Shown here: one piece after another, positions 1,314 through 32,449 of the stretch
Numbering within the stretch: the stretch's first letter is position 1
Layout: the number at the start of each line of letters is the position of its first letter
NCBI GenBank assembly: GCA_012519565.1
Contig: JAAYPX010000049.1
Coordinates: 1-33,633 of the forward strand
DNA length: 33,633 bases
Reading direction: 5' to 3'
Source: Clostridiales bacterium
GTDB taxonomy: Bacteria > Bacillota > Clostridia > Lachnospirales > Lachnospiraceae
Translations under genes and position numbers: made by a program
The notes under the pieces: model-generated
Databases searched by the model: none
Seen by the model: only the letters and a program-made list of their open reading frames with translations
What the model was told of the DNA's origin: nothing

Positions 1314-1998
1314 TTACTACTTCACCATCCTCCAATTCATAGATAACATCTGCTGCATCCATTAACCCCATATCATGGGTTGTCATTATAATGGTTACCT
1401 TTTCCTTACTGACCAGCTCCTTAAATATCTTCATAACATTTAATGCCGAATTACTATCTAACTCTGCCGTTGGTTCATCAGCAAAAATCACCATAGGACG
1501 ATGGGCTATAGCTCTAGCTATGGCAACCCTCTGTTGCTCACCTCCAGATAACTCTTGGGGCATATGATGCATACGATTCCCTAAACCAACAATTTGTAAA
1601 CAATTACTTACCCTTTCTTTCTTATCCCCCTTAAAGCCAGATAATCTAAGAGCAAATTCTACATTTTCAAATGCGGTCATAATCGGAATAAGAGATACGG
1701 ATTGAAATATAAAACCTATCCTCTGTCTTCGCAGCAGCTCCCTCTGCCTTTCATTGAACTTGGTAGTATCTTGATTTTCAATATAGATAATGCCTGAAGT
1801 AGGTTTATCCAATGCTCCCAAAAGATTAATTAAGGTTGTTTTTCCCGAACCTGATCTACCTTTTAAGATTGATAATGTATTCCTAGGAATTTCAATATTT
1901 ATATCTTTTAAAGCGTGGAAATCTTTTCCCCCAGCTACAGGAAAGAAACGATTTAAATCCTTAGTCTGTATAATAAATTTATCGTTTTTTTGCATCAT
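1306..1998 (-). CDS. ABC exporter ATPase (MacB/LolD type)
   Basis: Second ATPase of the exporter, about 230 residues, the normal family length. It shows Walker A GRSGSGKTT, signature LSGGEQQR, Walker B VIFADEPTAELD and the switch histidine in TTHD, so it looks catalytically competent. The ORF track begins at a GTG (2013) that sits flush against AAGGTG and has no room for a ribosome binding site. I prefer the ATG at 1998, five codons downstream, with AAGGTGG 11 bases ahead. It lies between the permease gene and the second ATPase gene and overlaps the latter by 8 bases. Two different ATPases beside a single fused permease suggest a heterodimeric motor, one subunit carrying the AbrB-like tail and this one not. 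The transported substrate cannot be read from the sequence. Confidence 0.92.
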   Translation of the reverse strand: MMQKNDKFIIQTKDLNRFFPVAGGKDFHALKDINIEIPRNTLSILKGRSGSGKTTLINLLGALDKPTSGIIYIENQDTTKFNERQRELLRRQRIGFIFQSVSLIPIMTAFENVEFALRLSGFKGDKKERVSNCLQIVGLGNRMHHMPQELSGGEQQRVAIARAIAHRPMVIFADEPTAELDSNSALNVMKIFKELVSKEKVTIIMTTHDMGLMDAADVIYELEDGEVVNG

Positions 1999-2020
1999 TA
2001 TATAGAACACCACCTTATGT

Positions 2021-4819: not shown

Positions 4820-4842
4820 TATTAACCTACCTTCCGAAATTA

Positions 4843-7144: not shown

Positions 7145-7161
7145 TTTAGATCCCCCCATAA

Positions 7162-8247: not shown

Positions 8248-8298
8248 ATTAACCTCCATTCTGACATTATATAATTATTATTTCATTAGTTTCTCACA

Positions 8299-14084: not shown

Positions 14085-14121
14085 AATATTCTACCTTTCT
14101 ATATCTAAGAACTTATTTCCC

Positions 14122-15615: not shown

Positions 15616-15685
15616 AATAAACTCCAACCCTTTCTACTTAAATATTACATGTCAATATGTTCTAACATCATATTTGCCAGTGGCC

Positions 15686-16143: not shown

Positions 16144-17109
16144 TTAGAAATCCATAATCTTATATAATACCTCTTTAGGCTTATGGCTCTCATCGAATAG
16201 TAAAGGCCAATTTTTTCGATTTCTAGCTGGGAAATGATCTAGCCAGGTGTAATCGTCTGCTACTCCCCAAATAGTAACACAATCAATAACATCCTTATAT
16301 TCTCGGAATACACGAAAAGCTCTTTCATATACATCTTCCTGCATTTTAATCATTTCCTTGGTGGGCCTCTCCAGGGATCTATGGTCTTGGAATTCAAACA
16401 TGGATACATCCATCTCAGTAACCTGGATTTTTACTCCTAGGCTTGCGTATAATTCTATGGCTCTTCTTAACTCATCCTCTGTAGGTGTTACTATATTAAA
16501 ATGACACTGCATACCAATACCATCTACAGGCACCCCCCTTTCTAACATGCCTTTAACTGTTTCATATATTTTCTGACTTTTTATTGGATTAGTTTCATTG
16601 TAATCGTTATAATATAACTTTGCTTCAGGAAGTACTTCTCTAGCTAAGTGAAATGAAATATCCATGAATTCTGGACCTAATATTCTGAGCCATTTACTGT
16701 CCCGTAACACTTCATCTTTTTTATCCTCGATAGCCTCATTAACAACATCCCAGCAGTATATATCTTTTTCATAACGCTTACCAATAGTAATCATATGATT
16801 TCTTAATACATCAATTAAACCTTCTTTATCAACATTCTCAAATATGTACCTAGGAGTCTGATTGTGCCAGACAAAGGTATGGCCTCTCATTGCAATATTA
16901 TTTTCTCTGGCAAATTGTACTATTTTATCAGCTTTAGTAAAGTCATATTCACCCTTTTCATTACACACACTACTATATTTCATTTCATTTTCGCATGTTA
17001 TGCTGTTAAAATGAGTAAGAATCACATCCTTATGTGAGTTTATTGTTCTTTCACTTACTGCAACTCCTACCTTAAAATAATCCTTATACTTTTCTTTTAA
17101 ACTTATCAT
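16144..17109 (-). CDS. GH10 endo-1,4-beta-xylanase, intracellular
   Basis: 321 residues, a bare GH10 (beta/alpha)8 barrel. FKVGVAVSERTI and NSITCENEMKYSSV are at the N-terminus, RGHTFVWHNQTP near 75-86, WDVVNEAI with acid/base E125, GIGMQCHFNI near 197-206, and QVTEMDVS with nucleophile E232. It ends WGVADDYTWLDHFPARNRKNWPLLFDE. The absence of a signal peptide or binding module makes it an intracellular xylanase, which in known systems trims imported, often glucuronate-substituted xylo-oligosaccharides. GGAGG precedes the ATG by seven bases. It lies just downstream of the solute-binding protein, consistent with working on what the importers bring in, next to GH115 and GH43 functions. Confidence 0.96.
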   Translation of the reverse strand: MISLKEKYKDYFKVGVAVSERTINSHKDVILTHFNSITCENEMKYSSVCNEKGEYDFTKADKIVQFARENNIAMRGHTFVWHNQTPRYIFENVDKEGLIDVLRNHMITIGKRYEKDIYCWDVVNEAIEDKKDEVLRDSKWLRILGPEFMDISFHLAREVLPEAKLYYNDYNETNPIKSQKIYETVKGMLERGVPVDGIGMQCHFNIVTPTEDELRRAIELYASLGVKIQVTEMDVSMFEFQDHRSLERPTKEMIKMQEDVYERAFRVFREYKDVIDCVTIWGVADDYTWLDHFPARNRKNWPLLFDESHKPKEVLYKIMDF

Positions 17110-17227: not shown

Positions 17228-17248
17228 GAGACGGTCTAAGACCGTCTC
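17228..17248 (-). terminator. Strong stem-loop after the solute-binding protein gene
   Basis: GAGACGGTC and GACCGTCTC form a perfect nine-base stem with a TAA loop, 20 bases after the stop codon. The minus strand then reads TCCGTTT, a short T tract. It is best seen as a partial terminator or 3' stabiliser separating the importer block from the xylanase. Confidence 0.6.
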
Positions 17249-17268: not shown

Positions 17269-18744
17269 TTATTTATTAGAAATTTTCTCGATGTTAGCAT
17301 TAGTTTCTGCTATTAGTGCATCCCACTTACTACTAATTTCCTCTATTTTTTCAGCAGGGGTAGCCTGTAATCCATAAATACTCCATATCATATCATCACC
17401 AGTATTAATACCATATACAAAATTATGATAGTTATAAACTACATCAGCAACATCATACATCATGGCCAAGGTTTCATCTACTGCTCTCTCATCCCTGTAC
17501 ATAGGATAGTAACGTTGCTTCCAATCGTCATCACCTTCGTATCCTGGTGTAGGATTGGTCCATAAATTATAAGCAAATGCTATCTTATTTGCTGTTTCCT
17601 CATCATAGCATGAAGGAATTACAGCAATATTATCACTAAAGTATACTCTATAATTTGATTCTTTATCAGGTTTTGGGAAGAGTACAAATCCCCAATCATC
17701 TTCCATGTCTTTTAAATCACCAGCCCAGTATTGCTCTCTAGCAATCATAGCTACTTCTGCTTGCATAAATGCGGTTGTAAAGTAGTCCCAGTTGGCATCT
17801 TCTGGACCTTTCATCTCATAACCTTTGTTTATTAACTTTACAACCCATTGCAAAGCTTCAATAAATTGTGGTTCATGAATTGCATTATAAAATTTACCAT
17901 TCTCGTCTTTACCTACAAATTTTCCATTATTAGCTGTTATAGCTCCTGGGATAAGCTCAGCAGAGAAGCTCATCATTGGATAAGTATCAATTACCCCATC
18001 ATTGTTATTATCAATAAGTAATTCTTCGCAAAGCTCCTCAAACTTATCCCATGTCCAATCCCCACTAGCCTGTAAATCGTATGGTAAATCAGGATCTAAA
18101 CCTGCTTCTTTAAATAATCTCTTATTAAAATATATTCCCAATTTAGGTTCTGATTTTCCTGATGCCATGCCAAAGATACTATCTCCATAGGTCATCTGTT
18201 CCAGAACAGCTTGATTCCATTTACTTTCTGTAAAATCAAGGTGCTCTAAAGTAGCTAGATCATAAAACAATCCATTGGCCAAAGGCTGTGCGGTCCAAGC
18301 TGGACCTAGAAGCATAATTTCAGCTGCTGGGTCTTCCGCCATAACAGATGTTGTGAAAGTCTCCTGCATGCCATTCCAATCTGATACAGCAACCTGCTTC
18401 ATTTTAAAGTTATATTTTTCTTGTATCATTCTGCGATATTCTTGAGTAGCCTCTTCTTGAGCAGTGGTTGGTTCTTTTTCTTCATCTGATGACCACCAGT
18501 CACCAATTATTATTTCCATTCCACCTAAGTCTAAATCTGGTATTGGTGTAAGGGTTGGACCTTCTTCTACTGTATCAAGGTTTGTATCATCTTCTTTTGC
18601 TACATCATCTGTTTTATCTTGTTCTACCTTGGAGCTGTCTGAAGATTCTGTCTCATCCTTTTTTCTACAAGCGGCAAATAGAGATAGACTCATAGCTAGA
18701 ATCATCAGAATTAATAACCACTTTCTAATACTCTTGATTTTCAT
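17269..18744 (-). CDS. Sugar ABC transporter solute-binding lipoprotein
   Basis: 491-residue extracellular binding protein. The signal peptide MKIKSIRKWLLILMILAMSL leads to lipobox FAAC (Cys26), followed by a low-complexity acidic linker (about 27-60). The periplasmic-binding fold begins near GGMEIIIGDWW. DNNNDGVIDTYP (near 248-259) is an EF-hand-like calcium loop often found in family 1 sugar-binding proteins. GAGGAGG precedes the ATG. It is the last gene of the nine-gene block, downstream of its two permease genes, and is followed by a stem-loop and the xylanase. The likely ligand is a substituted xylo-oligosaccharide, by context only. Confidence 0.92.
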   Translation of the reverse strand: MKIKSIRKWLLILMILAMSLSLFAACRKKDETESSDSSKVEQDKTDDVAKEDDTNLDTVEEGPTLTPIPDLDLGGMEIIIGDWWSSDEEKEPTTAQEEATQEYRRMIQEKYNFKMKQVAVSDWNGMQETFTTSVMAEDPAAEIMLLGPAWTAQPLANGLFYDLATLEHLDFTESKWNQAVLEQMTYGDSIFGMASGKSEPKLGIYFNKRLFKEAGLDPDLPYDLQASGDWTWDKFEELCEELLIDNNNDGVIDTYPMMSFSAELIPGAITANNGKFVGKDENGKFYNAIHEPQFIEALQWVVKLINKGYEMKGPEDANWDYFTTAFMQAEVAMIAREQYWAGDLKDMEDDWGFVLFPKPDKESNYRVYFSDNIAVIPSCYDEETANKIAFAYNLWTNPTPGYEGDDDWKQRYYPMYRDERAVDETLAMMYDVADVVYNYHNFVYGINTGDDMIWSIYGLQATPAEKIEEISSKWDALIAETNANIEKISNK

Positions 18745-18796
18745 TTTTTACCTCCTCATTAATTTTATAGTAAAGTGTTTAACACTTTCTACATAA

Positions 18797-19840
18797 TTAC
18801 ATTTTTAAACCAGTCTGATTTATACTCTCAACAAAGCCCTTCTGAGCTACTATATAGATAATCAGTAGTGGGATAATCGTCATAATCATTCCAGTGGAAA
18901 TCATCATTTGTGAATAAGCCTCTGATATTTTGCCAGATCCATACATGGCCAGATTGTAGTCGCTCAGTAATCCAGTTATTGATGTTAATCTTTTTGATAG
19001 TAATACAACTTTGCCAAGGAACATCTTGGAATAGAATGAATCTGTCCATTGCCAAACAAAAGCAAACAAAAAACATGATGTTATAACTGGTCTAGCGTCA
19101 GGAAGCATAATTCTTATAAATGTAGATAGATTACCACAACCATCGACATAAGCTGCCTCCTCAAGCTCCTTGGGCACTCCTCTAAAATATTGTCTTACTA
19201 TAAATATGTACAAACCATTCTTCAACCCCATACAACTGGCACTAAGTAGCAAATATGGTATAGTCGAGTTATGGAGATTAATAGTCGATCCTTTAAAAAA
19301 TTTGAATATACCAAAAATATCAAAAAATCTAAAATTAAGATATAAGGATGACATAATGGTTTGAGGTGGAACAACTATCACTAATAAAACACAGGCAAAC
19401 CAAAACCTTTTTAGGGGAAAATTAAATCTTGCGAACCCATATCCAACCAATGTACAGGATACAACTTGTAATATACTAACTAGGGTTGATATGCCAATGG
19501 TATTGCGCAGCGCCTTCCAATAGCCAATTAAATAGTTAATTAGTTTATAATTTTCTGTAGTAAAATTTCTTGGAACAACTATTACCGTAGAATCATATAA
19601 ATCTTTTTCTTTCATAAAGCTTAAGGATAGCTTGTTAATCAGTGGCTGTAATATTAAGAAGCACAAACCCATTATCAGGATTGCTCGTATTAACTTATAC
19701 AACTTACTCTTTACAATCTTCCTAAGAAGGTAACCACCAGATTTTTCATTTCTTATAGCAAACTCTCTCCATCTGTTTATGAGTGAGTTTTCTTGCACTT
19801 TCTTGCTAGTAATTGATTTTTCTGCTATTGTTTTATTCAT
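18797..19840 (-). CDS. Sugar ABC transporter permease, MalG-like
   Basis: 347-residue inner-membrane permease with about six helices. The conserved cytoplasmic EAA loop reads ELEEAAYVDGCGNLSTFIRI followed by MLPDARP, and the protein ends NQTGLKM. The N-terminus has about 50 extra charged residues before the first membrane helix compared with the usual 280-residue MalG type. It starts within the end of the MalF-like gene, overlapping by 8 bases (ATGAATAA), so translation is coupled. It pairs with that permease and the downstream lipoprotein. No ATPase gene is present in the window. Confidence 0.92.
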   Translation of the reverse strand: MNKTIAEKSITSKKVQENSLINRWREFAIRNEKSGGYLLRKIVKSKLYKLIRAILIMGLCFLILQPLINKLSLSFMKEKDLYDSTVIVVPRNFTTENYKLINYLIGYWKALRNTIGISTLVSILQVVSCTLVGYGFARFNFPLKRFWFACVLLVIVVPPQTIMSSLYLNFRFFDIFGIFKFFKGSTINLHNSTIPYLLLSASCMGLKNGLYIFIVRQYFRGVPKELEEAAYVDGCGNLSTFIRIMLPDARPVITSCFLFAFVWQWTDSFYSKMFLGKVVLLSKRLTSITGLLSDYNLAMYGSGKISEAYSQMMISTGMIMTIIPLLIIYIVAQKGFVESINQTGLKM

Positions 19841-20741
19841 AATAATACACCCACCTTGAAATAATTCCGCTAGATATGCCTATAATAAGGATAACAGCTA
19901 AAAAGTAAACCCAGGCCATAGCAGAACTTAATCCATAATCCAATTTCGGAGACATTGTTTCTGTAATCTTTTTCATAACATCGCTATCAGTTCTCATAAA
20001 AAAATCAACGATGGTATATACTAAATTTACTAATACTACGGAACTTACCATTGGCAATGTAATCTTCCAGAAACTTTCCCAAGATGTGCATCCTTCTATT
20101 TTAGCTGCCTCATACATATTTTTTGGTATAGTCTGTAATCCCGAAAGGAATATTATGATTTGGATACCAGATGCAATAACCACATCATAAACACTATTTA
20201 CGATGTTAAAGACAGTCGTCAAAAATCTTGTGCCTATACCACTGTTTGATAATATTTCCTCTAAAGCTGCTGTAATACTTGTATCATTCGTGTTTGCCTT
20301 TATATAGTCTGCAAGCCCCTCCAATAGACTATTGTTATATTCCAGTCCTACCAATACACCAGAAGATAGTATAACTGGAAGGAAAAACACTGCCCGTACC
20401 AATCCCCTTCCTTTGAACTCCTGGTTAAGTAGTAGAGCCATAAAAAAACTGATTATTAATGTAGCTGGAACACTAGTGGCCATTTTTGTTAACTCTTCCG
20501 TAAGGAAGCGGGCATATTCAGGATCCACTCGAAAGGCAGTTTTAAAGTTTTCCAAACCTATAAACTCCATTATAAAACCGCCCTGACCGCTTTGGATTAA
20601 AACTCTACTAAAACACATTCGAAACGATTCTATGAGTGGCAAAACCATGAAGGCAATAAAGCCTATAATAAATGGTGAGATGAATAAATACCCAGCAATT
20701 GCTTTCCTTTTTTTCAAATCCTTTTGCTTTGCTTTAGCCAT
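19833..20741 (-). CDS. Sugar ABC transporter permease, MalF-like
   Basis: 302-residue membrane permease. The first helix is near 14-38 (GYLFISPFIIGFIAFMVLPL). A periplasmic loop of about 50 residues comes before the core helices, and the EAA loop is NMYEAAKIEGCTSWESFWKI followed by TLPMVSS. GAAGGTAAAG lies ahead of the ATG, and only four bases separate it from the stop of the DUF5696-like gene upstream, so it belongs to the same transcript. It forms the second permease pair of the block with the overlapping MalG-like gene. Confidence 0.92.
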   Translation of the reverse strand: MAKAKQKDLKKRKAIAGYLFISPFIIGFIAFMVLPLIESFRMCFSRVLIQSGQGGFIMEFIGLENFKTAFRVDPEYARFLTEELTKMATSVPATLIISFFMALLLNQEFKGRGLVRAVFFLPVILSSGVLVGLEYNNSLLEGLADYIKANTNDTSITAALEEILSNSGIGTRFLTTVFNIVNSVYDVVIASGIQIIIFLSGLQTIPKNMYEAAKIEGCTSWESFWKITLPMVSSVVLVNLVYTIVDFFMRTDSDVMKKITETMSPKLDYGLSSAMAWVYFLAVILIIGISSGIISRWVYYYE

Positions 20742-20745
20742 ATCT

Positions 20746-23271
20746 TTACCTTCTTTCCACTATATAGTCTCTTGCAGGAACATTTAAACCGTTGTAGGCA
20801 AAATCTGTATTACTATAGTTGACATATACTTTAGTACCATCCTCATAACTAGTAACCATTACTTTCTCACTTAATATCTCGTGGTCAGTAATATATTGGT
20901 TAAAACAATGTCCTAATTCCTCTTCATATCTACTATAAATTTCATAAGCTTTGCCTATCCATTGGTCATAATCTGCTGCGAAAAATGATGTGTAATTTGA
21001 TTCCTGTAAAGTAGATACAGGCTCTTTCATAAATGTGAAAGATAGGCCAGCTCCTGTTTCAACACTTTTAAGAACCATATCTTGATAATTTTCCGCTAAA
21101 TTAACTGCCTTTCCTGAATAATTAACCAAACCATGTAGTGCAATGGAATAGAACGGAATCGCATGATCAATTATGTGATACATATTTCCCTTGAAATCCA
21201 TATTAGTTACAAAATCCACATATGGTATTACATAATCATTACCATGGTTGACTATTATACCTTTACCAGATGCAATAAGCTCCTGCATCTTCTCTTGCTG
21301 CATATTTATTACATCTTGCCTGCTTATATTGTTTTTGGGATTATAATCCCCACTGATGTAATGACCAATATCATAGAATGCTAATCCACTGGCAGCATAA
21401 CTATCTACGCTCCTCCAAAGATTATCAATAGCTTCTAAAGCCACCTGCGGCTTTAATAAGTAATGGTAATCCTGTAAAGTATCTACACCAAACCATAACC
21501 GGGAGAATGGTTTTAGTTTAACAATTTCTCTAGTGGCATATTTAGCTGCATCTCTATTGATTACAAAACCGTCAAAGAGAGTATTATCATATGCATATTC
21601 CATTCTACCTTCCAAGTACACGGGTACATTGAGTTCCTTGGATAATTGTATAAACTTCCTAAAGGCTTTTTCTCCACCTAATTCAGAAATTGGTTTAATA
21701 CGATTTAAATTTTTATGTTTAAGCCCACCGTTCATCCACCCAGAATATTTTATGGATAAATTTTTAAAGCCAAGATTATATAGGTCAGTGAGTAACTCAT
21801 ATGCTTCGTTATAAGTGGTCAGAGCTATTGGAACCGACATTGGTACCCCAAATTTTTGTTTTATTTTATCAATAGCCCCTAACACTGTTACATTAACAGG
21901 GGTACTGGTCTCCTCTTTCTTTTTCATATTAGGATAACGGTCCAATAAATATTGCCTATATTCAATAGCCATATCTACATAGTCATCGGAATTTAGAAAG
22001 CTATATCTTTGTTTAACTGATCCTTGGGGCTTATTTTTTTCATATAGAACAACTGCTGCTGCTGATTTGGCAGAAACATTCATCGGTGCAGAGTGGATTA
22101 CAGTATATGTAGCATTAGCGTAATTGTAACTGTTACTGCGGCCACTTACATCCGCCTCAATAGCAGCCACTGCTGCATAATCTTCTAGTATACATAGGAC
22201 GGAATTTCCATTCTTTGCAATACCGAAAACAGGAAAATCAGCCCTGCTTTCATCAATTAAAGCATTCCTCTTCAATGCGTCATCCCAACCATAAATATCG
22301 GAATAGTATGAATTCATGGTGTTTTTACCATTATTAAATGTTATTATTGAGCCATTACCCTCTGGTATTAAGAGATATCCCTCATCTTCTGTGCTACCAG
22401 CACCAAAGTAAGGAAGAACTTTCACATTTATCATAGGATAATAGTCATACCATTCCATTTCATCAAATGGTAGTTCAACAACTAGATCCTTATCTTCCAA
22501 TCGGTAAATTACAGATATGTTAAAAAATGGTATGTTTTTGTCCTTAGCTTTACTTCCAATTTGACTATCTAGCTCAAAATCCTCGTCAGTATAACCAGCT
22601 TGGGAAAATATAACCTCTAATTTTTGTCTTAAATGATCTGGAATACCATCTCGGACTGCATAAACAATCTCATTGGCTAAATTGGGATATAAGGATAATA
22701 ATTCTGATTTATTATCTGAAGCCCGCAGATTATTGATATCATACTTTCTATAGTACTCTTTAATCTGCCTTTGCCCGCTACTGTCCATTTTTTCTAAAAA
22801 AATATTAAGTCTGTCTTCAGAAATTGCTAAAGGTATCTTAAAAACTTTTTCCACTACACCTAAGGTATAGTTCACCTTAATGTAATCATTTCCCTGTTCA
22901 ATAGAATACTGTCCTCTTTCAATTGAATATTCATGATTATTGTATAAAGTATCAACACCATTTTCATTGCTGTATTTAAGTATTAGCGTCGATTGAAGTA
23001 GGCTTTTATTAAGGCCATTGGCTAGTGGATCATTATTACCATCCACTGGATTTGAATACCATACCGCATTACTGCGCTTATCTATTACTTGAAAACTTGT
23101 GCTGCTTGGGTCTAATATTAAACTTAAATTTTCATTCTCAAGTGTGTAAGAATTCTCTACTTCTGTATTGGAGAATGTTTCTAATACTTTTTCTTCTTCA
23201 TCAGTCTTATTACAACCGACCATTATGATTACTACCATTAAACAAATACTTACCAAACTATACTTTTTCAT
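20746..23271 (-). CDS. Large lipoprotein, DUF5696-like (glycosidase-fold candidate)
   Basis: 841 residues. A short signal peptide ends in lipobox MVGC (Cys20), so it is anchored outside the cell. The N-terminal half (about 40-420) looks like a beta-supersandwich: ENLSLILDPSSTSFQVIDKR is the pattern seen at the start of several glycosidase clans. The central part (about 445-720) resembles a (beta/alpha)8 barrel, with LTDLYNLGFKNLSIKYSGWM, LSKELNVPVYLEGRMEYAYD and FYDIGHYISG. The end, KVYVNYSNTDFAYNGL, is a small beta domain. I recall this protein family as DUF5696, repeatedly next to Yip1 and sugar permease genes; that identification is from memory. It may be a surface glycosidase or a sugar-binding relative that feeds the two importers. 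Confidence 0.8.
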   Translation of the reverse strand: MKKYSLVSICLMVVIIMVGCNKTDEEEKVLETFSNTEVENSYTLENENLSLILDPSSTSFQVIDKRSNAVWYSNPVDGNNDPLANGLNKSLLQSTLILKYSNENGVDTLYNNHEYSIERGQYSIEQGNDYIKVNYTLGVVEKVFKIPLAISEDRLNIFLEKMDSSGQRQIKEYYRKYDINNLRASDNKSELLSLYPNLANEIVYAVRDGIPDHLRQKLEVIFSQAGYTDEDFELDSQIGSKAKDKNIPFFNISVIYRLEDKDLVVELPFDEMEWYDYYPMINVKVLPYFGAGSTEDEGYLLIPEGNGSIITFNNGKNTMNSYYSDIYGWDDALKRNALIDESRADFPVFGIAKNGNSVLCILEDYAAVAAIEADVSGRSNSYNYANATYTVIHSAPMNVSAKSAAAVVLYEKNKPQGSVKQRYSFLNSDDYVDMAIEYRQYLLDRYPNMKKKEETSTPVNVTVLGAIDKIKQKFGVPMSVPIALTTYNEAYELLTDLYNLGFKNLSIKYSGWMNGGLKHKNLNRIKPISELGGEKAFRKFIQLSKELNVPVYLEGRMEYAYDNTLFDGFVINRDAAKYATREIVKLKPFSRLWFGVDTLQDYHYLLKPQVALEAIDNLWRSVDSYAASGLAFYDIGHYISGDYNPKNNISRQDVINMQQEKMQELIASGKGIIVNHGNDYVIPYVDFVTNMDFKGNMYHIIDHAIPFYSIALHGLVNYSGKAVNLAENYQDMVLKSVETGAGLSFTFMKEPVSTLQESNYTSFFAADYDQWIGKAYEIYSRYEEELGHCFNQYITDHEILSEKVMVTSYEDGTKVYVNYSNTDFAYNGLNVPARDYIVERR

Positions 23272-23286
23272 CTCCTGCCCTCCTAA

Positions 23287-23949
23287 TCAGTAGAAACGAA
23301 AGACAATTTCTTTATATAATGATATGAAATATGCAACAGTGTCACTGACTAAGCTGAAAAATAGTAATAATACGAATATGATTAACATCATTCCAACTAT
23401 GGTAGCAATTATTGTGATAACAGCTTTGCCTAAGGAATATTCATGTATCATCATAGCGGCACTCATGATTAACATTACACACCAAATTCTAGACAGACTG
23501 GCAAAAAAGTAATAGAATGCTCCTTCTTCTACTGTCATAAGATTACTTATAAATATCATAGGTAATTGAATTAATACATAAGGGGTAAGGGCATATCCCA
23601 TGGCCATATATATTCCTTTCAAGGTACCTTTACCATCGAAAAGTGTTGTCAATCCCCAGTTAGCAACACATCCAATAATAATCGGTGCAATAAATCCAAT
23701 TATTTCTTCAAAAATATTGATATACTCCCACTGCACTTTTATAAAGAGAAAACTTGTAAATTGAAGTCTCCAGATCTTTGTTATCAAAGATAGGATAATA
23801 ATTATATTTGCAGCCCCCAAAGATCCTCTTTTCTCATGGGTTAAATCCCAAAAACCGTCCAATGGATGAGTTATCACATATAGCGAATAGCGTAGTGTCT
23901 TACCCAGATGTTTCATCGTATCTGTGCTAAAAGCTGTAGCTATTTTCAT
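23287..23949 (-). CDS. Yip1-family integral membrane protein
   Basis: 220 residues with about five or six hydrophobic helices after a cytoplasmic N-terminus that contains HPLDGFWDLTHEKRGS, the conserved block I associate with bacterial Yip1-domain proteins. YALTPYVLIQLPMIFISNLM is the second family hallmark (a proline-rich membrane segment). It overlaps the NHL gene's stop by 4 bases (ATGA), so it is translationally coupled, and is 15 bases ahead of the DUF5696-like gene. Its role is unknown. The fixed position between the propeller and lipoprotein genes suggests a membrane partner of one or both, perhaps stabilising the two permease pairs. Confidence 0.85.
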   Translation of the reverse strand: MKIATAFSTDTMKHLGKTLRYSLYVITHPLDGFWDLTHEKRGSLGAANIIIILSLITKIWRLQFTSFLFIKVQWEYINIFEEIIGFIAPIIIGCVANWGLTTLFDGKGTLKGIYMAMGYALTPYVLIQLPMIFISNLMTVEEGAFYYFFASLSRIWCVMLIMSAAMMIHEYSLGKAVITIIATIVGMMLIIFVLLLFFSLVSDTVAYFISLYKEIVFRFY

Positions 23950-25424
23950 GCTTCACTCACCTCTCTCTTAATTTTCTTTACTCTTGCACTTATAGTAGGA
24001 GCAGCAATAGCAATTACAACTATTGTAAATATCCAGGAGATATTTCTCTCAATCCATTCTTTACGATATAGTTGGTATGCCTTAGAATAATTATTATCAT
24101 CCCACTTATATTTAAAGTATTTCATCGCCTCTTCATATCTTTTTTGCCTTAATAAGGAACGTCCAATGCCAATATAGGCTAGATCATAGTTTCCATTAAA
24201 CATAAGAACGCGTTCCCAATACTCCGCTGATAAATCGTAATTACCCTTTTTATATTCTTCTAATGCATCATTAATAAGCTCTCCATAACTTGTTAAGGTA
24301 AAGATTGTTATTCCTAAATTTTTAGTATCCAATACTAATAAATCCGTACCCATATGGTCTATAGCAACAGGATACTGTAAATACCCAATTTTATTACCAA
24401 GTCCCCCAAAGGCATAAAGCAGATTACCCTGATTATCATAGCCAAAGATACGCCCTCTAGTCCTATCAAGTGCATAGTAAGTATCATTATCTAGAGCTGT
24501 TACATCCACTAATTTTGAAGAACCAGTAACCCCTCCTGCATCTCCCCACTCTACATCACCTATTGGTGGGAAATAACCATTTTTAATTAAAATATCTTTC
24601 CCCATAGTATTTAATTTTCGAATAGGCTTTGCTTGATCACTTATTAAATCATACTCTTCAAATACTGATGTGGTAGCATAGACAAATCCATCCTTGTCAA
24701 TGGCAATATTGTTATATTCGGTAGGTACAAATTGTACCATCTGAGATCTTTGGATTTCTGTTGAAATCTGTTTCCATAAGTAATCAATCATATTAAACTT
24801 TACGGTATTAGCCCCCATATAACCAGTAAACTCACCCTTATTATCAAATACCAATACACCCTTGTTATAATTCTTGACTAAAACAAATATTCTTCCTAAT
24901 CGATCTACTACTACTTTCTGTGGAAAAAAGTCCAAGGAAGGATCTATGGTTTCATCCTGGGGTTGATGCATTTCTTTCACTAATCTATATTGAGAATCGA
25001 TTTGGACTATCCTCTGATTATTGGTATCACATATATACATATCTCCATTACCTGACACGAATATATCATGAGGAGCAGCTAAGGAATTGACTGCTGTATC
25101 TCCATCAAATTCACTGAATTCATTGATAACCACAAATTGATCAGCATTTTTTTCTATGATAACAATTCGATTATTACCTGTATCACATACATAAATAGTA
25201 TTATCTTTTACAAATACTCCTTGCGGATCTTTGAAATTACCTATACCTAATGTATTACCGGTTATAAAATATGATGGTGTATATGCATCAGGAGATTTCA
25301 TAGCATCGCCAAAATAATCATATGTGTAGGTATACATACTATCCATGGCCTTTACATTCATTGATGGAGATATTAATAATATCAAGATACAGAAAAGAGC
25401 AGTTTTTATACTTTTTTCTCTCAT
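23946..25424 (-). CDS. NHL-repeat beta-propeller with TPR and C-terminal membrane anchor
   Basis: 492 residues. A signal peptide (about 1-26, ending KAMDS region) is followed by NHL-type blades: LGIGNFKDPQGVFVKDNTIY, VCDTGNNRIVIIEK, LAAPHDIFVSGNGDMYICDT, NNQRIVQID and more, with LGNKIGYLQYPVAIDHMGTD as the last. Residues about 390-445 form a TPR pair (EYKKGNYDLSAEYWERVLMF, GRSLLRQKRYEEAMKYFKYK). A single membrane helix (about 457-475) ends in a basic cytoplasmic tail, giving a propeller outside and an anchor at the C-terminus. GGAGG precedes the ATG. The layout suggests an extracellular scaffold beside the importers. No catalytic motif is visible. Confidence 0.85.
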   Translation of the reverse strand: MREKSIKTALFCILILLISPSMNVKAMDSMYTYTYDYFGDAMKSPDAYTPSYFITGNTLGIGNFKDPQGVFVKDNTIYVCDTGNNRIVIIEKNADQFVVINEFSEFDGDTAVNSLAAPHDIFVSGNGDMYICDTNNQRIVQIDSQYRLVKEMHQPQDETIDPSLDFFPQKVVVDRLGRIFVLVKNYNKGVLVFDNKGEFTGYMGANTVKFNMIDYLWKQISTEIQRSQMVQFVPTEYNNIAIDKDGFVYATTSVFEEYDLISDQAKPIRKLNTMGKDILIKNGYFPPIGDVEWGDAGGVTGSSKLVDVTALDNDTYYALDRTRGRIFGYDNQGNLLYAFGGLGNKIGYLQYPVAIDHMGTDLLVLDTKNLGITIFTLTSYGELINDALEEYKKGNYDLSAEYWERVLMFNGNYDLAYIGIGRSLLRQKRYEEAMKYFKYKWDDNNYSKAYQLYRKEWIERNISWIFTIVVIAIAAPTISARVKKIKREVSEA

Positions 25425-25434
25425 TGCTTCCTCC

Positions 25435-26301
25435 TTATTCCTTAATACCTGAAGTTGCCATCGTTTGAAGAATATTACTTTGAGATATTATGAATGTACA
25501 TATAGGTACTATCATCATAATTAATGTTACCGCTGAACCTACACCCGCTCTTGCGATACCTCCAGCAATAATCTGTGATAAAGCATATGGCAAAGTCTTC
25601 ATTTCTTCGGAGTAGATAAAATTGGATGCCCTAGTATTCCACAAGCCTTGAACTGAGAGTATAATTAAAGTTAGAGAGGCTGGCTTAACCAGTGGCATAA
25701 CAATCCTTGTATATATTTTCCACTCTTTTGCTCCATCTATCTTAGCTGCATCCATCAATGTATCAGGTATGCCATCCATGAACTGCCTCATCAGGAAAAA
25801 CCCAAGGGGTGCAGCAAATGCTGGTACTATAACAGCCCATATGGTATTAACCCAACCAATCTTAGACATAACTATGTAGTTTGGAATGGCAGTAACATAA
25901 CCGTTGAACATTAGAGCAGTAACTACTAAATTACTGAACATTTTACCGCCAGGAAAATCGTATTTTGCAATTACATATGCACCCATAGAAGAAATCAAGA
26001 GATGACCCGCTGTACCTACTACCGTAATAAAAGCTGTGTTAAAAAAGTATCTTGAGAAGGGCACCCATGACTTGCTTAAAATTACAAATAAATCCTGAAA
26101 GTTATCAAGCGTAGGGTTTTGAACAAATAACCTTGGAGGATAAACGAATATCTCATCCAAAGGTTTAAATGCACTGTTTATGGCATATACCAGAGGAAAT
26201 GCCATAAACATGCCAAATAGTGTTAAGACAAAATAGATACAATAATCCCCTGCCCTTGAGCGATTCGGTCTTCTTCTTTTAAAATGTTTTCTTTTCTTCA
26301 T
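25435..26301 (-). CDS. Sugar ABC transporter permease, MalG-like
   Basis: 288-residue permease of standard length. A basic N-terminus (KKRKHFKRRRPNRSRAGDY) comes before the first helix, the EAA loop is LMDAAKIDGAKEWKIYTRIV then MPLVKP, and it ends QTMATSGIKE, the usual close of MalG-type permeases. AAAGGA lies nine bases before the ATG. It sits between its MalF-like partner (25 bases upstream) and the NHL gene (10 bases downstream), making it part of a continuous transcript. Confidence 0.93.
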   Translation of the reverse strand: MKKRKHFKRRRPNRSRAGDYCIYFVLTLFGMFMAFPLVYAINSAFKPLDEIFVYPPRLFVQNPTLDNFQDLFVILSKSWVPFSRYFFNTAFITVVGTAGHLLISSMGAYVIAKYDFPGGKMFSNLVVTALMFNGYVTAIPNYIVMSKIGWVNTIWAVIVPAFAAPLGFFLMRQFMDGIPDTLMDAAKIDGAKEWKIYTRIVMPLVKPASLTLIILSVQGLWNTRASNFIYSEEMKTLPYALSQIIAGGIARAGVGSAVTLIMMIVPICTFIISQSNILQTMATSGIKE

Positions 26302-26326
26302 AGCATTATTTCCTTTCTATACGACA

Positions 26327-27265
26327 TCAGGTCCCAACCCTTCGCAACATGGCCTGTATTGCTTTATTACTTAAGATCATTGTTAAAAACAATAGAGTTG
26401 CTATTGCGGAAGCATATCCCATCTCAAATCTTATAGAGCCATAATCAATCAAGTGGGTTACTACCGTTTCTGCTGCATAGTCAGTACTTGGAAATCCAGC
26501 TAATTGCATTGTTACATCCGCAACACCAAAGGACTGTGTAATGGACATTACCGCACCAAACATCAGCATAGGTTTCATGTTAGGCAGAGTAATAAACCAT
26601 AATTCTTGCCAACGATTTCTTACACCATCTATATATCCTGCCTCAAACATGGTCTGATCAATTCCTTGCAATCCAGCGACAAAACCAAGGAAACCTGTGC
26701 CCAAACTCATCCATAGGATAACCACCATAATAACCGGCATCATATACTTAGGATTGGTAAGCCAAAGTATAGGCTCATTTATCAGTCCAAGATTTAATAA
26801 AAATGCATTAACATAACCATAGGCGTCACCAGAAAACATGATAGACCAGATCAGATATACCTGACCAGATATAGTAGGGGCATAAAATACAATTACAGCA
26901 AATGCTCTTATATATCTTGGTAGCTCATTTATAAACCATGCAAACAAAAATGCTGCTATATAGCCAATCGGTCCCGTAATTGCTGCAATTAAAAATGTGT
27001 TTTTAATTGCTATTAAAAATACATCATCTGCCAAAATCAAGTTCGAATAGTTTCTTAATCCTACAAAATTAGGCGGTTCTAAAACATTATAATATGTAAA
27101 ACTTAATACCAAAGAAGATACCACAGGAATAATATAGAATAAGAAAAATAGAATAGCGTAAGGAGCAAGAAACAGATAGAATGTCTTTGAACGCTTTACC
27201 ATCTTCCAAGTAATAGCAGCATCTCTTTTCTTTTTTCTTATATACTTCTGTACAAATGTACCCAT
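26327..27265 (-). CDS. Sugar ABC transporter permease, MalF-like
   Basis: About 312 residues, six helices, with the first at LFLAPYAILFFLFYIIPVVS. The EAA loop reads TMFEAGYIDGVRNRWQELWF followed by ITLPNMKP; the Ala of EAA is kept but the second position is Gly. The ORF-track start (27280) is a TTG. The ATG at 27265 with AGGGGG six bases ahead is the better start, placing it 11 bases after the solute-binding protein stop. It forms an importer with the MalG-like gene downstream and the large binding protein upstream. Confidence 0.92.
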   Translation of the reverse strand: MGTFVQKYIRKKKRDAAITWKMVKRSKTFYLFLAPYAILFFLFYIIPVVSSLVLSFTYYNVLEPPNFVGLRNYSNLILADDVFLIAIKNTFLIAAITGPIGYIAAFLFAWFINELPRYIRAFAVIVFYAPTISGQVYLIWSIMFSGDAYGYVNAFLLNLGLINEPILWLTNPKYMMPVIMVVILWMSLGTGFLGFVAGLQGIDQTMFEAGYIDGVRNRWQELWFITLPNMKPMLMFGAVMSITQSFGVADVTMQLAGFPSTDYAAETVVTHLIDYGSIRFEMGYASAIATLLFLTMILSNKAIQAMLRRVGT

Positions 27266-27276
27266 TTTATACCCCC

Positions 27277-30168
27277 TCAATGAATATCTAAGCCAAACTC
27301 CAAACGCTTTTTGCTAATTTCTTCGTTAATTTTTCTAGAATAATCTAGAAGTGTTTCTCTTGCCTCTGTATTCTGATTTATAACTTTTCTAATGGCATTG
27401 GTAACATGCCTGGAAGTATAATATCCACCAGCTACTTCTTTAAATCCTTTTGTCCATTGCCATTGTTCCTTAATAGCTTCCATCTGCCTGCTACTCCACG
27501 CTAACTGCTCAAAAGCTACTAAGTTTGCAGTTGCATATCGAGCAGATGCACCAAGAATACTCTCCATTTCACGGCCAAATCTTACTTGTGTATCAGCACT
27601 TACCCACCATTTTAGGAACTCCCAAGCCTTTTGTTTCTTAGCATCATCCTTCTGTTTTAACATAATGGAACATGTCACCCCAGAGATTCCCGATCGATCA
27701 ATATTTCCATCTGGCTGTACAGTACCTGGTAGTAATGTGAAGTCCCAAAGTCCTCTGATTTCTGGTGCAAATACCACTAGTGTATTATAAGTACCATAAT
27801 TTTGTATTCCCAGAGGGATTTCACCCGAGCGGAAACGGTTTACGAAATCAAAAACTGTTGGTAGACTATACTGATTATATAATTTAGTATAAAGTTCAAA
27901 GGCTTTTACTCCACTTTCACTATCTATAACGGTAGATTTACCTTCATCATCATATAATGATCCACCACTTTGATATAACATTGAATAATAGGCCGACAAA
28001 TCATTACTAACTGCAGAGGGAACTGCCACATTCATGTTGTTTTGCTGTATTGTAGGTAAAATATCTATTAACTCATCCCAAGTCTGTGGAACATCCAATC
28101 CCAGTTCCTCCATAATGTCCGTACGATAAAATAGAAGGTTAAAGCTCTGAGTTTCTGGAACACCATAGATACCTCCCTCAAACTTAAAAGGTTCATAGGA
28201 ACTATAATGGAACTCTGCTAATACATCTTTATAATCTTCAAACTGGGTTATATCCTCTACTGCATTACGTAATGCATAGTTGACCGGCTCCCCTTGACCA
28301 AGGGAAAGAGCAATATCAGGACCTGTTCCTGCAATTACAGCATTAAGTAAAGTACCCGCTTCAATCAACTTAACATTTACTTTAATACCGGTCTGATGGG
28401 TAAAACTATCATCTATCATTGTTTTTATAACAGTACTCTGATCACGACCAGTTGTAATCCAAACTTCAACAGCTTCATCTTTATCATATACATCACCTAC
28501 AGAATCATAGTCCATAATAAAAGATGTTATAAAGGACTTGACTTCATGTACAAATTTAGCTAAAAAGGTTTCATGTACTGGATCAGGTTCTGCATTAAGG
28601 CCTGTTATTGTTATACTGTCAATATCTAAAGGCGATTCACTTAAAGTTAATACGGTTGTTCCCAGAGAACTTATATTACTTTTAAAATTCGCTAAGGTTT
28701 TTGGAATTTTGTCTGGTCGCTTCACTAGCTTCTCTAATTGTTCTGCCAATGTCTGTGCAGTCGAAACCTGGCTGGCTTTCTCACCTGCATAGGTAACCAT
28801 TTCATCCACAAGCTTATATAAACGTTTACTCTCTAAATCCATGGCGGTAATTACTTCAGGATAGACTTTATGAATATTGTAATCACGATATCGATCCGGA
28901 TTTGTTCCTGTTAAGACTATAATTTTTCTATAGATTGCATTTAGACGGTATATAATATCTTCCAGTTCATTAAGTATTTGCCCTAAAGAACCAAGAGTCA
29001 CTTCTAAACGTAGGGAATGTTCTCCTTTAGACAAATAAAACTCATATGGTACTCCCTTCTCATCTGCTAAAGTCATACCTTCCCATTCATTACTATATTT
29101 AAAACTTATATCTTTTACTTCTTCAAAAGGTATTACACCATCAATATATAGACTTCTATTTGATACAAAACCCCTTTGGTAATTTTGTCTACCTTTTATT
29201 GATATTTTATAGTAACCATCTTCTGGCACATCGAACTTCCATTCAATCCATTGTCCTGGTACTCTCCATGAATAACCACCACCCATATTCAAACGTATCT
29301 TGGCTACGCTATACGGCTCTGTTTTAGCTGATGAACGGTCAAAGGTTGCATAGAGGGATGGTGATGATCTCACATATGAATCCTCTCCTTGTATTACCTT
29401 TTTGTAATTACTCGAGATATCTGATAAAGCAACTTCTGGTGTCTGCTTCCTATACTCTGTATAAGTAGGCCTCTCTTTAATCCCACATAGAGTAAGAGTC
29501 TTAATTATTATTGGTTCATTGACAGCTTCCAAAGCAATGGTATTTCTTCCTTTTTCCAAGAAAAACATATAGGGCTCTGCGAAATAACCCATATAGTCTT
29601 TAAAATATGCTTCTGTCCAATTAGGCATCTCTATCTGCCCCGGTCTAATATCATTCCCTTGATTATCTTGCTTAACTTCACTCCGGTCAGTCCAGAGTCT
29701 AGTAAAAGTTAAAGTATCAGCACCGACAAAAGGTATATTGCCATTGATGTAAAATTTTCTCTCTATATCCACACCACGGGATTCCACAGGATAATATTCC
29801 ATATAGACCTGATACAAGCCACTTTCAGGTATATCTACCTGCCACTCCACATAAGAATCCTCCAAAGTATGTAATACATTTTGAACTCCTTCGTGGTACT
29901 GTAATATCTCAACCCCTTCTGCATAGCTGTATTTAGTTATATTTACTGGAATATCTTGAGTAGCCAAGGAAGCATCCGTATGATTATCAAGATATTTCAT
30001 ATATGTATTATCCCGGCCTATCCCTACTACTTCTGCTTTCAAATCATCTATACCTTCATACTTGTGGCTAAAAGTTTCAATGTCTTTATTAGGAATGAGC
30101 AAAAGGATTAGTACAGCGACCAATATCAGAATTATCCCTATTACTTTTTTGTTTCTAATAAATTTCAT
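27277..30168 (-). CDS. Membrane-anchored solute-binding protein fused to carbohydrate-binding-like domains
   Basis: About 963 residues, twice the usual length. After a basic start there is one membrane helix (about 8-25) and no lipobox cysteine, so it is tethered by that helix. Residues about 75-250 and 270-400 are two related beta-sandwich segments: VEWQVDIPESGLYQVYMEYY and IEWKFDVPEDGYYKISIKGR are the same CBM6/35-like pattern, each followed by a KGR/KGEH ligand-side loop. A helical linker covers about 405-520. The C-terminal part from about 570 (VEVWITTGRDQ) is a typical sugar-binding protein: GTGPDIALSLGQG, GIYGVPETQSFNLLFYRTDI, LPGTVQPDGNIDRSGISGVT and KAWEFLKWWVSADTQVRFG. The ATG at 30168 with GGAG ahead replaces the track's TTG at 30201. 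It is the first gene of the nine-gene block. Confidence 0.88.
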   Translation of the reverse strand: MKFIRNKKVIGIILILVAVLILLLIPNKDIETFSHKYEGIDDLKAEVVGIGRDNTYMKYLDNHTDASLATQDIPVNITKYSYAEGVEILQYHEGVQNVLHTLEDSYVEWQVDIPESGLYQVYMEYYPVESRGVDIERKFYINGNIPFVGADTLTFTRLWTDRSEVKQDNQGNDIRPGQIEMPNWTEAYFKDYMGYFAEPYMFFLEKGRNTIALEAVNEPIIIKTLTLCGIKERPTYTEYRKQTPEVALSDISSNYKKVIQGEDSYVRSSPSLYATFDRSSAKTEPYSVAKIRLNMGGGYSWRVPGQWIEWKFDVPEDGYYKISIKGRQNYQRGFVSNRSLYIDGVIPFEEVKDISFKYSNEWEGMTLADEKGVPYEFYLSKGEHSLRLEVTLGSLGQILNELEDIIYRLNAIYRKIIVLTGTNPDRYRDYNIHKVYPEVITAMDLESKRLYKLVDEMVTYAGEKASQVSTAQTLAEQLEKLVKRPDKIPKTLANFKSNISSLGTTVLTLSESPLDIDSITITGLNAEPDPVHETFLAKFVHEVKSFITSFIMDYDSVGDVYDKDEAVEVWITTGRDQSTVIKTMIDDSFTHQTGIKVNVKLIEAGTLLNAVIAGTGPDIALSLGQGEPVNYALRNAVEDITQFEDYKDVLAEFHYSSYEPFKFEGGIYGVPETQSFNLLFYRTDIMEELGLDVPQTWDELIDILPTIQQNNMNVAVPSAVSNDLSAYYSMLYQSGGSLYDDEGKSTVIDSESGVKAFELYTKLYNQYSLPTVFDFVNRFRSGEIPLGIQNYGTYNTLVVFAPEIRGLWDFTLLPGTVQPDGNIDRSGISGVTCSIMLKQKDDAKKQKAWEFLKWWVSADTQVRFGREMESILGASARYATANLVAFEQLAWSSRQMEAIKEQWQWTKGFKEVAGGYYTSRHVTNAIRKVINQNTEARETLLDYSRKINEEISKKRLEFGLDIH

Positions 30169-30289: not shown

Positions 30290-32449
30290 TTATGAGATTT
30301 CAAGTCTTTGTTCTGCCCTTACCTGCAACTTAAAAGGGGTCTTCCCTGTCAATTCAATACTTCTTTTATCAGGTTGAGAATCTCCTACATATATTGTATA
30401 TAAGCCTTCCTCAACGTATCTTTTACCATCTGTACCACAAAGACTAAAGGCACTTATTGGAAGATTAATACTCATTTCCTTCTTCTGCCCAGGAGCTAAT
30501 TCTACTTTTTTGAATGACTTTAATTGTGGATTTGGTGTACCTGATCGTTCAGCTTTAATATAAATTTGAACCGTATCTCTGGCTTTGTAATTTCCTGTGT
30601 TATAAATAGTAAATTTAATATTAACTCCCTGGTCATTAACAATCTCTGTATCAGCCTGAACATTATCAATTTTGAATTTTGTATAGGATAAACCATATCC
30701 AAATGGGTATAAGGGTTCTTTGCTCATATACCTATAGGTTCTTTCTTTCATAGAGTAATCAGTAAAATCTGGTAGCTCCTCTGTGGTCTTATAGAAAGTA
30801 ATAGGAAGTTTACCTTCTGGTGAAAAATCTCCAAAGATCGCTTCAGCTATTGCTCTTCCACCCTGTGCTCCAGGATACCATCCCTGTATAATGGCAGGAA
30901 TATGATCCTGAGCCCAGTTAATTGCAAGTGCACTTCCAGACAGCATAACCAAAATAGTAGGTTTACCACTTTCATATATGGTCTTTAAAACTTCTTCCTG
31001 TATCCCTGGTAAATTTAAATCTCTTTTGTCACCGCTCGCATACTGATTCCCCTCATCACCTTCTTCTCCTTCTAAACTTGGATCTAGTCCCATACATGCA
31101 ATAACCACATCACTCATTTCACACACTGATTTTACTTCAGAGAGACGGTCATTTCTTACCGCCAGATTCTCTATACTATCCTTATGCAAATGACATCCTT
31201 CGGAAAAGTATACTCTGACATCTTGACCTAAGTAATCTTGAATTCCTTCACTAATGGTAATATAACGAGAAGCTGTACCTTCATAATTGCCAACCAAGGC
31301 CCTGCGATTATTGGCGTTTGGTCCTATAATACCTATACTTTTTATTTGGTTTTTATCAAGGGGAAGCAAGTTATTCTCATTTTTAAGTAGTACTAAGGTT
31401 TTTCTAGCAGCATCAAGATTTTTCTCTCTCATCTCTTGTAAATCTACTATGTCATAAGTTATGTTACTAAAAGGCACTTTACTGGGTTCATCAAACAAAC
31501 CAAGTTTCATTCGAGTTGTGAAAAGTCTCTCTACTGCTGTTGTTATCTGCTCTTCTGAAACTAATCCTTGCTCTACAGCCTTCTCTAGATATAAGAACAA
31601 ATTACCACAATTTAAGTCACAACCGTTATTCACTGCCAGTGCCACTGACTCTACTGGTCCCTCTGTAACACCATGATACTTATAAAAATCTTTGATAGCC
31701 CAGCAATCCGAAACTACGTGTCCCTCAAATCCCCAATCTCCACGGAGAATATCTTGTAATAAAAATTTACTTCCACAACATGGCTCACCATTGGTTCTAT
31801 TATAAGCCCCCATAACAGCTTCTACTTTAGCTTCTTTAACACAGGCTTCAAATGCTGGTAAATAAGTTTCATACAAATCCTGTTTTGAAACTTCTGCATT
31901 AAAACTATGACGTAAATCTTCTGGACCAGAATGAACTGCAAAATGTTTTACGCAGGCCGCAGATTTTAGATAATTTTCATCATCTCCTTGTAAACCATTT
32001 ATATAACTGACACCCAATCTAGAGGAAAGATAAGGATCTTCTCCAAAAGTTTCATGCCCCCTTCCCCAACGAGGATCGCGAAAAATATTAACATTAGGTG
32101 ACCAAAAGGTGATTCCCTTATATATATCCGTATCTCCAAAACGCTGCTGCATATTAAATTTGGCTCTTCCCTCGGTTGAAACAGCATCACCGATACTTTC
32201 AATAAGCTCTTCATCAAAGGTTGCCGCCAAACCTATTGCTTGTGGAAAAATAGTAGCCACACCAGCTCTAGCAACGCCATGTAGTGCTTCATTCCACCAA
32301 TTATAAGAATTCACATTTAGTCTTTTAATAGCTGGCGCCTTATGAAGCATCTGTGAACATTTCTCTTGAAGAGTCATCTTACCTACAAGCTCTTTTGCTC
32401 TTTCCTTATATTTATTAATTTTTTCAGTATTATGAATTAGTTTTCTCAT
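30290..32449 (-). CDS. GH3 beta-xylosidase-like glycoside hydrolase
   Basis: 719 residues, no signal peptide, so a cytoplasmic exo-enzyme. The N-terminal barrel has NWWNEALHGVARAG and ATIFPQAIGLAATFD, the beta-xylosidase-type GH3 pattern, then FWSPNVNIFRDPRWGRGHET and FGEDPY. The nucleophile is D248 in GHVVSDCW. The alpha/beta sandwich follows (LVLLKNENNLLPLD, SLEGEEGDEGNQYASGDKRD near 455-475) and the protein closes with a fibronectin-III-like domain (YPFGYGLSYTKF onward). GAGGAAG is ahead of the ATG. It would release xylose from the non-reducing ends of imported xylo-oligosaccharides. The gap to the binding protein gene is 121 bases, so it may be the first gene of the same transcript. Confidence 0.94.
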   Translation of the reverse strand: MRKLIHNTEKINKYKERAKELVGKMTLQEKCSQMLHKAPAIKRLNVNSYNWWNEALHGVARAGVATIFPQAIGLAATFDEELIESIGDAVSTEGRAKFNMQQRFGDTDIYKGITFWSPNVNIFRDPRWGRGHETFGEDPYLSSRLGVSYINGLQGDDENYLKSAACVKHFAVHSGPEDLRHSFNAEVSKQDLYETYLPAFEACVKEAKVEAVMGAYNRTNGEPCCGSKFLLQDILRGDWGFEGHVVSDCWAIKDFYKYHGVTEGPVESVALAVNNGCDLNCGNLFLYLEKAVEQGLVSEEQITTAVERLFTTRMKLGLFDEPSKVPFSNITYDIVDLQEMREKNLDAARKTLVLLKNENNLLPLDKNQIKSIGIIGPNANNRRALVGNYEGTASRYITISEGIQDYLGQDVRVYFSEGCHLHKDSIENLAVRNDRLSEVKSVCEMSDVVIACMGLDPSLEGEEGDEGNQYASGDKRDLNLPGIQEEVLKTIYESGKPTILVMLSGSALAINWAQDHIPAIIQGWYPGAQGGRAIAEAIFGDFSPEGKLPITFYKTTEELPDFTDYSMKERTYRYMSKEPLYPFGYGLSYTKFKIDNVQADTEIVNDQGVNIKFTIYNTGNYKARDTVQIYIKAERSGTPNPQLKSFKKVELAPGQKKEMSINLPISAFSLCGTDGKRYVEEGLYTIYVGDSQPDKRSIELTGKTPFKLQVRAEQRLEIS

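Follow-up and report, generated by a model that had tools for sequence, protein, structure and literature searches.

The closest described relatives of the gene block reported here are the CUT1 importers, such as MalFGK2 and AraNPQ-MsmX, with which it shares MalF/MalG-type permeases bearing an EAA loop, family-1 binding proteins and an MsmX-like ATPase acting in trans (PMC7658222). The block consists of nine genes within a 33,633-nucleotide stretch of Clostridiales bacterium DNA (the window), which makes up an entire contig (G000:C158) of a 2.77 Mb genome assembled in 269 contigs. Its genes are named here, in order, SBPa, PermFa, PermGa, NHL, Yip1, DUF5696, PermFb, PermGb and SBPb, where SBP stands for a sugar-binding protein and Perm for a permease. 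In contrast to CUT1 systems, the two permease pairs always occur together, a putative NHL-Yip1 scaffold and a protein with a glycosidase fold lie between them, and SBPa is lengthened by an additional N-terminal half that contains tandem repeats. The aldouronate and xylo-oligosaccharide clusters of Paenibacillus also place importer genes beside genes for cytoplasmic glycoside hydrolases of families GH10 and GH43 and for alpha-glucuronidase, as is the case here. However, those clusters comprise one binding protein with one permease pair and are not known to contain NHL, Yip1 or DUF5696.

The central proteins also have described relatives. Matches to the Yip1 family (PF04893) and to NHL-repeat proteins exceed Pfam gathering scores, but here the two are joined as an exported-propeller/membrane protein of an importer locus, and we know of no described Yip1-NHL fusion. 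The DUF5696 protein resembles the GH129 enzyme NagBb and the 3,6-anhydro-D-galactosidase DagB in its beta-sandwich, TIM barrel and C-terminal immunoglobulin-like domain, but it is ~11-14% identical to them, does not conserve their catalytic acids and is encoded inside importer operons. DUF5696 is listed in Pfam as of unknown function and was unmentioned in the open-access literature searched, with subscription journals and preprints outside coverage. No description of the block was found in the open-access literature on the NHL repeat, Yip1, the importer or the host names. Within this literature, the block was thus undescribed, as a first-pass annotation of the window had suggested.

Collectively, we consider it fairly likely that the block specifies a modular platform for importing oligosaccharides at the cytoplasmic membrane, composed of two CUT1-type importers, an NHL-Yip1/pseudo-glycosidase core and a shared ATPase acting in trans, with xylan oligosaccharides as cargo. 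We class the block as a CUT1 importer variant, one that could turn out to be a machine of its own kind. Monoderm glycan degraders are without the SusCD systems of Bacteroidetes, and their uptake of larger oligosaccharides is poorly understood. If the proposal is correct, the eight-gene importer from SBPa to PermGb would be a major, hitherto undescribed oligosaccharide route in Bacillota and also in Treponema, and would assign a role to DUF5696 and to a bacterial Yip1-family protein.

Conservation and coupling of the block

The PF18952 (DUF5696) model was searched in 61 relatives, 33 of which had a match, and in 399 sampled Bacillota genomes, 39 of which (~10%) exceeded the Pfam cut-off. Further loci were obtained by a degenerate pattern search in named GTDB contigs. 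A total of 139 DUF5696 loci were read, the second set having been gathered via DUF5696 homology alone and not via gene context. The order SBPa-PermFa-PermGa-NHL-Yip1-DUF5696-PermFb-PermGb was complete in 117 of these 139 loci. As read from coordinates, 19 of the remaining 22 end at a contig or stretch edge, two have a displaced PermGa and one contains inserted genes. In the two displaced cases (L085 and L088), PermGa has shifted downstream, after a weakly SBPb-like gene. The locus with insertions (L069, G053:C244) carries two further genes (304 and 451 amino acids) between a PermFa/PermGa pair and PermGa-NHL-Yip1-DUF5696, and SBPa was not present on the piece read. No half block was found among the 139 loci.

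SBPa and true DUF5696 were confined to the identical 31 of the 61 relatives; in this set, the DUF5696 match without SBPa, in genome G043, was a single partial match of 44 bits. Since the order recurs in 117 loci and most of the others are cut off, the block is conserved beyond chance, and the order together with the shared set of 31 genomes rules out a chance cluster. These findings agree with the first-pass reading of a conserved carbohydrate-uptake block, and NHL, Yip1 and DUF5696 were indeed found with paired permeases in other genomes (among the same 117 loci). Its suggestion that these neighbours recur in Paenibacillus-like genomes also proved correct, and the spread is far wider. Named hosts, drawn from Bacillota and Spirochaetota, include Lachnospiraceae, Oscillospiraceae, Defluviitaleaceae, Mahella, Paenibacillus, Bacillus, Lederbergia, Cohnella and Treponema, and a single genome can hold as many as ten DUF5696 places. 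In a set of 14 model genomes, DUF5696 gave no match over the cut-off. The Treponema loci (L097, L099-L102 and others) are in metagenome-assembled genomes whose names suggest termite and rumen samples. Their presence in this diderm phylum suggests that the block has been transferred horizontally as a whole, and it weakens the idea of a role limited to Gram-positive surfaces.

The catabolic genes beside the block differ from copy to copy. Locus L103 has GH10, GH3 and GH43 neighbours (xylan), as does the window, where GH115 is added for glucuronic side groups. Within the same genome as the window, L038 adjoins RhaA and an FGGY kinase (rhamnose), and L039 adjoins a PcRGLX-type lyase, GH2 and a GDSL esterase (rhamnogalacturonan). 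In other genomes, L145 lies beside GH36 (alpha-galactoside) and L110 beside GH130 (mannan). Because copies adjoin such varied genes, the core appears to be a general platform. The most likely cargo of the copy in the window is (glucurono)xylan oligosaccharides long enough for a cytoplasmic GH10; we infer this cargo, and the direction of import, from protein families and neighbouring genes.

Adjacent parts of the block are closely coupled. NHL and Yip1 form one reading frame in 33 loci, some of them in genomes of isolates (Paenibacillus lignilyticus, P. terrigena and P. alkaliterrae), and where they are separate the median gap is -4 nucleotides (nt), with 91 of 92 pairs at 30 nt or less. DUF5696 and PermFb are similarly close (median -1 nt; 30 nt or less in 131 of 135), with a looser gap between PermGb and SBPb (median 77.5 nt). 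In the 79 loci carrying all nine genes, mean pairwise identity was 0.56 for PermFa, 0.54 for PermGa, 0.43 for PermFb and 0.42 for PermGb, and 0.40 for SBPa, 0.38 for both NHL and Yip1, 0.31 for DUF5696 and 0.25 for SBPb. Since SBPb has the lowest identity of the nine, this most variable part is the likeliest substrate determinant.

Permeases, ATPase supply and the central proteins

The EAA motif was kept in all PermFa (119/119) and PermGa (126/126) homologs and in 127 of 129 PermGb homologs; PermFb is considered below. Because all four families keep the loop, both permease pairs seem capable of ATPase coupling. No clear MsmX-type ATPase was found within the block across the 139 loci. Five ATPase-like open reading frames near blocks were either weak matches (125 bits or less) or part of other clusters, which rules out a dedicated block ATPase among them. 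The genome of the window encodes one OB_MalK protein (L205), away from the block. In each of nine relatives, several of them complete and carrying multiple blocks, there were one or two MalK-type ATPases, and in the complete genomes these lie far from the blocks. When compared with the MsmX multitask signature (PMC7658222), L205 retained K43, D77, R104 and K154 (MsmX numbering) and had Q in place of E110. The two importer sets that had been annotated as complete therefore do possess permeases and binding proteins, but neither has an ATPase gene in the block, and the ATPase must come from elsewhere.

An AlphaFold2 (AF2) model of the DUF5696 protein had a predicted local distance difference test score (pLDDT) of 89.8. 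Foldseek matched this model to DagB (5opq; E 1.8e-32, TM-score 0.69 on target), to GH129 NagBb (5wzn and relatives, TM ~0.70) and more weakly to GH101, the GH129/DagB matches spanning E 1.8e-32 to 5e-26 and TM ~0.69-0.70 on target. The three-domain fold with its TIM barrel was present, and profile-sequence comparison concurred with the DagB/NagBb match. At E <= 0.01, Pfam reported DUF5696 alone on this protein, with no GH129 family match. From an alignment of the NagBb sequence, we take D330 to be one catalytic acid of NagBb. NagBb uses two acids, of which Asp435 alone is common to DagB, and DagB activity requires Asp486 and Glu517 (PMC5698469). With the D330 column placed by hidden Markov model (HMM) alignment and the other two columns by strand position, not superposition, the 137 DUF5696 proteins compared have S, T, N, L or K in the D330 column (S510 here), Asp in 47% of sequences at the position following barrel strand 4 (D634 here) and a mixture of N, D, E and S in the strand-5 column (N675 here). 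Only a single acid of the barrel half, E738, is near-invariant, and it lies within a helix past the barrel. Conserved counterparts of the catalytic acids (NagBb D330 and D435; DagB D486 and E517) were thus not found in these 137 proteins at the columns so placed. Since these acids are not conserved, DUF5696 is probably a pseudo-glycosidase, serving as a non-catalytic binding or scaffold part.

In the model of the P. lignilyticus NHL-Yip1 fusion (pLDDT 84.7), a signal helix is followed by the NHL propeller, by TPR-like helices and by an unbroken helix running into the Yip1 membrane helices. The propeller matched the NHL domains of TRIM71 and Thin. Of the three proteins first annotated as lacking an assigned function, NHL and Yip1 are therefore effectively one component, given their fusion in 33 loci, and DUF5696 is not a blank, having a GH129/DagB fold without the catalytic acids.

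Weak, sub-threshold DUF5696 matches over the barrel half were observed in frames of ~590-660 amino acids in the Thermotoga maritima and Lactococcus lactis controls, in genomes G361 and G239 and in others; these are probably related TIM-barrel glycosidases. A second DUF5696 copy in the genome of the window (L036, G000:C165:54530-56350) contains an in-frame TAG and is either a pseudogene or the product of a sequencing error.

Proposed import machine and rival explanations

In the proposed machine, SBPa and SBPb would capture oligosaccharide at the outer face. PermFa/Ga would be served by the permanently anchored SBPa with its lectin-like extension, and PermFb/Gb by the exchangeable lipoprotein SBPb, which would probably set the substrate range. 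The NHL propeller, TPR and Yip1 would form a shared membrane scaffold between the two MalFG-like channels, and DUF5696 would probably bind glycan or dock the binding proteins, so that NHL-Yip1 and DUF5696 would keep binding proteins, glycan or both close to the channels. A shared MsmX/MalK-type ATPase acting in trans would drive import, and cytoplasmic GH10, GH43, GH3 and GH115 would then cut the imported oligosaccharides.

In its strongest form, the proposal is that the eight core proteins make up one twin-channel membrane complex of a hitherto undescribed kind, with a common NHL-Yip1/pseudo-glycosidase scaffold and one trans ATPase, and that bacteria of gut, rumen, termite and soil habitats reuse this complex on different polysaccharides. 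We advance this tentatively, as plausible but short of probable. Because the order is conserved, NHL and Yip1 can be fused and half blocks are missing, joint assembly is favored, and the tight spacing and obligate co-occurrence would likewise favor the stoichiometric assembly first suggested from the spacing of the genes in the window. The distance matrices of all nine families, which correlate at 0.84-0.95, also speak for the proposal. Several points weigh against it. That both channels sit on one physical scaffold is something we infer indirectly, and joint regulation of two operon halves would yield much of the same pattern. PermFb kept the EAA motif in 112 of 133 homologs, the other 21 being without a textbook match. 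SBPb is spaced away from the other genes and, in the majority of loci read from Paenibacillus, Bacillus and Lederbergia, stands ahead of SBPa. The distance correlations carry no correction for species phylogeny. Finally, the block occurs in diderm Treponema, so that a role specific to the Gram-positive surface is not needed.

The main rival is that the operon holds two ordinary CUT1 importers, separate from each other and each taking up a different product of one polysaccharide, with NHL-Yip1 and DUF5696 auxiliary to one or both of them and no joint complex. Each half owns a binding protein and two EAA-loop permeases, and the higher conservation of PermFa/Ga (0.54-0.56) than of PermFb/Gb (about 0.42) indicates that the halves are under different constraint. 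However, independent importers usually shuffle and occur alone, whereas no half block was seen in 139 loci, one order holds for paralogs and for both phyla alike, and the core genes lie between the halves with overlapping junctions. We consider this explanation unlikely, although it deserves to be taken seriously.

Two other explanations change the role of a single part of the block. DUF5696 could have glycosidase activity and trim oligosaccharides at the membrane ahead of their import, making the block an importer with its own trimming enzyme. Consistent with this reading, the DUF5696 fold resembles those of the catalytic GH129, DagB and GH101 enzymes, and the protein is a lipoprotein or membrane-anchored and encoded beside the importers. 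Such activity is highly improbable, as the catalytic columns are not conserved as acids (S/T/N/L/K in the D330 column, Asp in under half of the sequences after strand 4) and the occurrence of one family next to genes for xylan, rhamnose, galactoside and mannan ill suits a single specificity. Slightly more improbable still is that the SBPa-PermFa-PermGa half does not transport but acts as a sensor of outside oligosaccharide, gating the core and the PermFb/Gb importer or signalling to them. SBPa has a tether and is better conserved than SBPb (0.40 versus 0.25) despite a changing catabolic context, which would be odd for a substrate-specific part, but the EAA loop was present in every PermFa and PermGa homolog scored, as ATPase coupling requires.

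Gene layout and the surrounding xylan-utilisation region

The open reading frame list and Pfam confirmed nine genes, all on the minus strand, with the order, starts and gaps of the first-pass annotation (Table 1). The SBPa start is an ATG at 30168 with AGGAG just before it; the mechanical open reading frame reaches 30201 via TTG. SBPa consists of a membrane anchor, two tandem beta-sandwich-like repeats that match each other (hhalign 99.4%, E 3.3e-21), a coiled-coil-like linker and a C-terminal family-1 sugar-binding domain. From SBPa onward, successive gaps are -4, 25, 10, -4 (ATGA, NHL/Yip1), 15, 4, -8 and 52 nt. The TPR in the NHL protein scored below the Pfam threshold, and every other assigned domain of the block scored above gathering. 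NCBIfam gave generic permease matches alone, all far under cut-offs.

Table 1. Coordinates of the block genes and of features flanking them in the window
Feature	Position	Strand	Evidence
SBPa	27277-30168	-	SBP_bac_8 1.7e-25; Golvesin_C sub-threshold; N-terminal membrane anchor
PermFa, MalF/UgpA-type permease	26327-27280	-	PF00528; EAA loop
PermGa, MalG/UgpE-type permease	25435-26301	-	PF00528; EAA loop
NHL, exported beta-propeller, TPR-like helices, C-terminal transmembrane helix	23946-25424	-	PF01436 8.4e-13
Yip1-family multi-spanning membrane protein	23287-23949	-	PF04893 1e-11, 45.4 bits vs gathering 28.6
DUF5696 lipoprotein	20746-23271	-	PF18952 9.8e-185, 616 bits vs gathering 25.6
PermFb, MalF/UgpA-type permease	19833-20741	-	PF00528; EAA loop
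PermGb, MalG-type permease, N-terminal extension	18797-19840	-	PF00528; EAA loop
SBPb, lipoprotein family-1 sugar-binding protein	17269-18744	-	PF01547 1.1e-17; lipobox LFAAC
GH3 beta-glycosidase	30290-32449	-	PF00933/PF01915/PF14310; no visible signal peptide; transcript probably begins with this gene
9-bp perfect hairpin 3' of SBPb	17228-17248	- (listed on +; perfect palindrome)	possible transcript end or processing site
GH10 xylanase	16144-17109	-	PF00331 5.7e-101; no signal peptide
Two GH43 enzymes, one with CBM6	12531-15627	-	PF04616, PF03422, PF17851
GH115 alpha-glucuronidase	8348-11221	-	PF15979 4.8e-129

The GH3 gene lies upstream of the block and ends 121 bases from the SBPa ATG. Because a terminator-like hairpin with a T-run (32660-32645) precedes GH3 and a hairpin follows SBPb, a transcript running from GH3 through SBPb is predicted. 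The operon probably comprises GH3 and the nine genes, extending the nine-gene unit originally annotated.

By inspection, the N-termini of the GH3, GH10, GH43 and GH115 proteins were without a signal peptide, and these enzymes are therefore probably cytoplasmic. An AraC-type regulator is also encoded in the flanks. Within this xylan-utilisation region, positions 423-8259 (minus strand) encode three HlyD/biotin-lipoyl-like lipoproteins, a 941-amino-acid FtsX-type permease and two ATP-binding cassette (ABC) ATPases, a compact cluster that reads as a MacB-like system for export or mechanotransmission in which three proteins are adaptor-like. At the contig end (33495-33633) there is a perfect 46-nt inverted repeat, probably an assembly artefact; the GH43-CBM6 gene at this end is missing its N-terminal half, and its apparent start falls inside the repeat.

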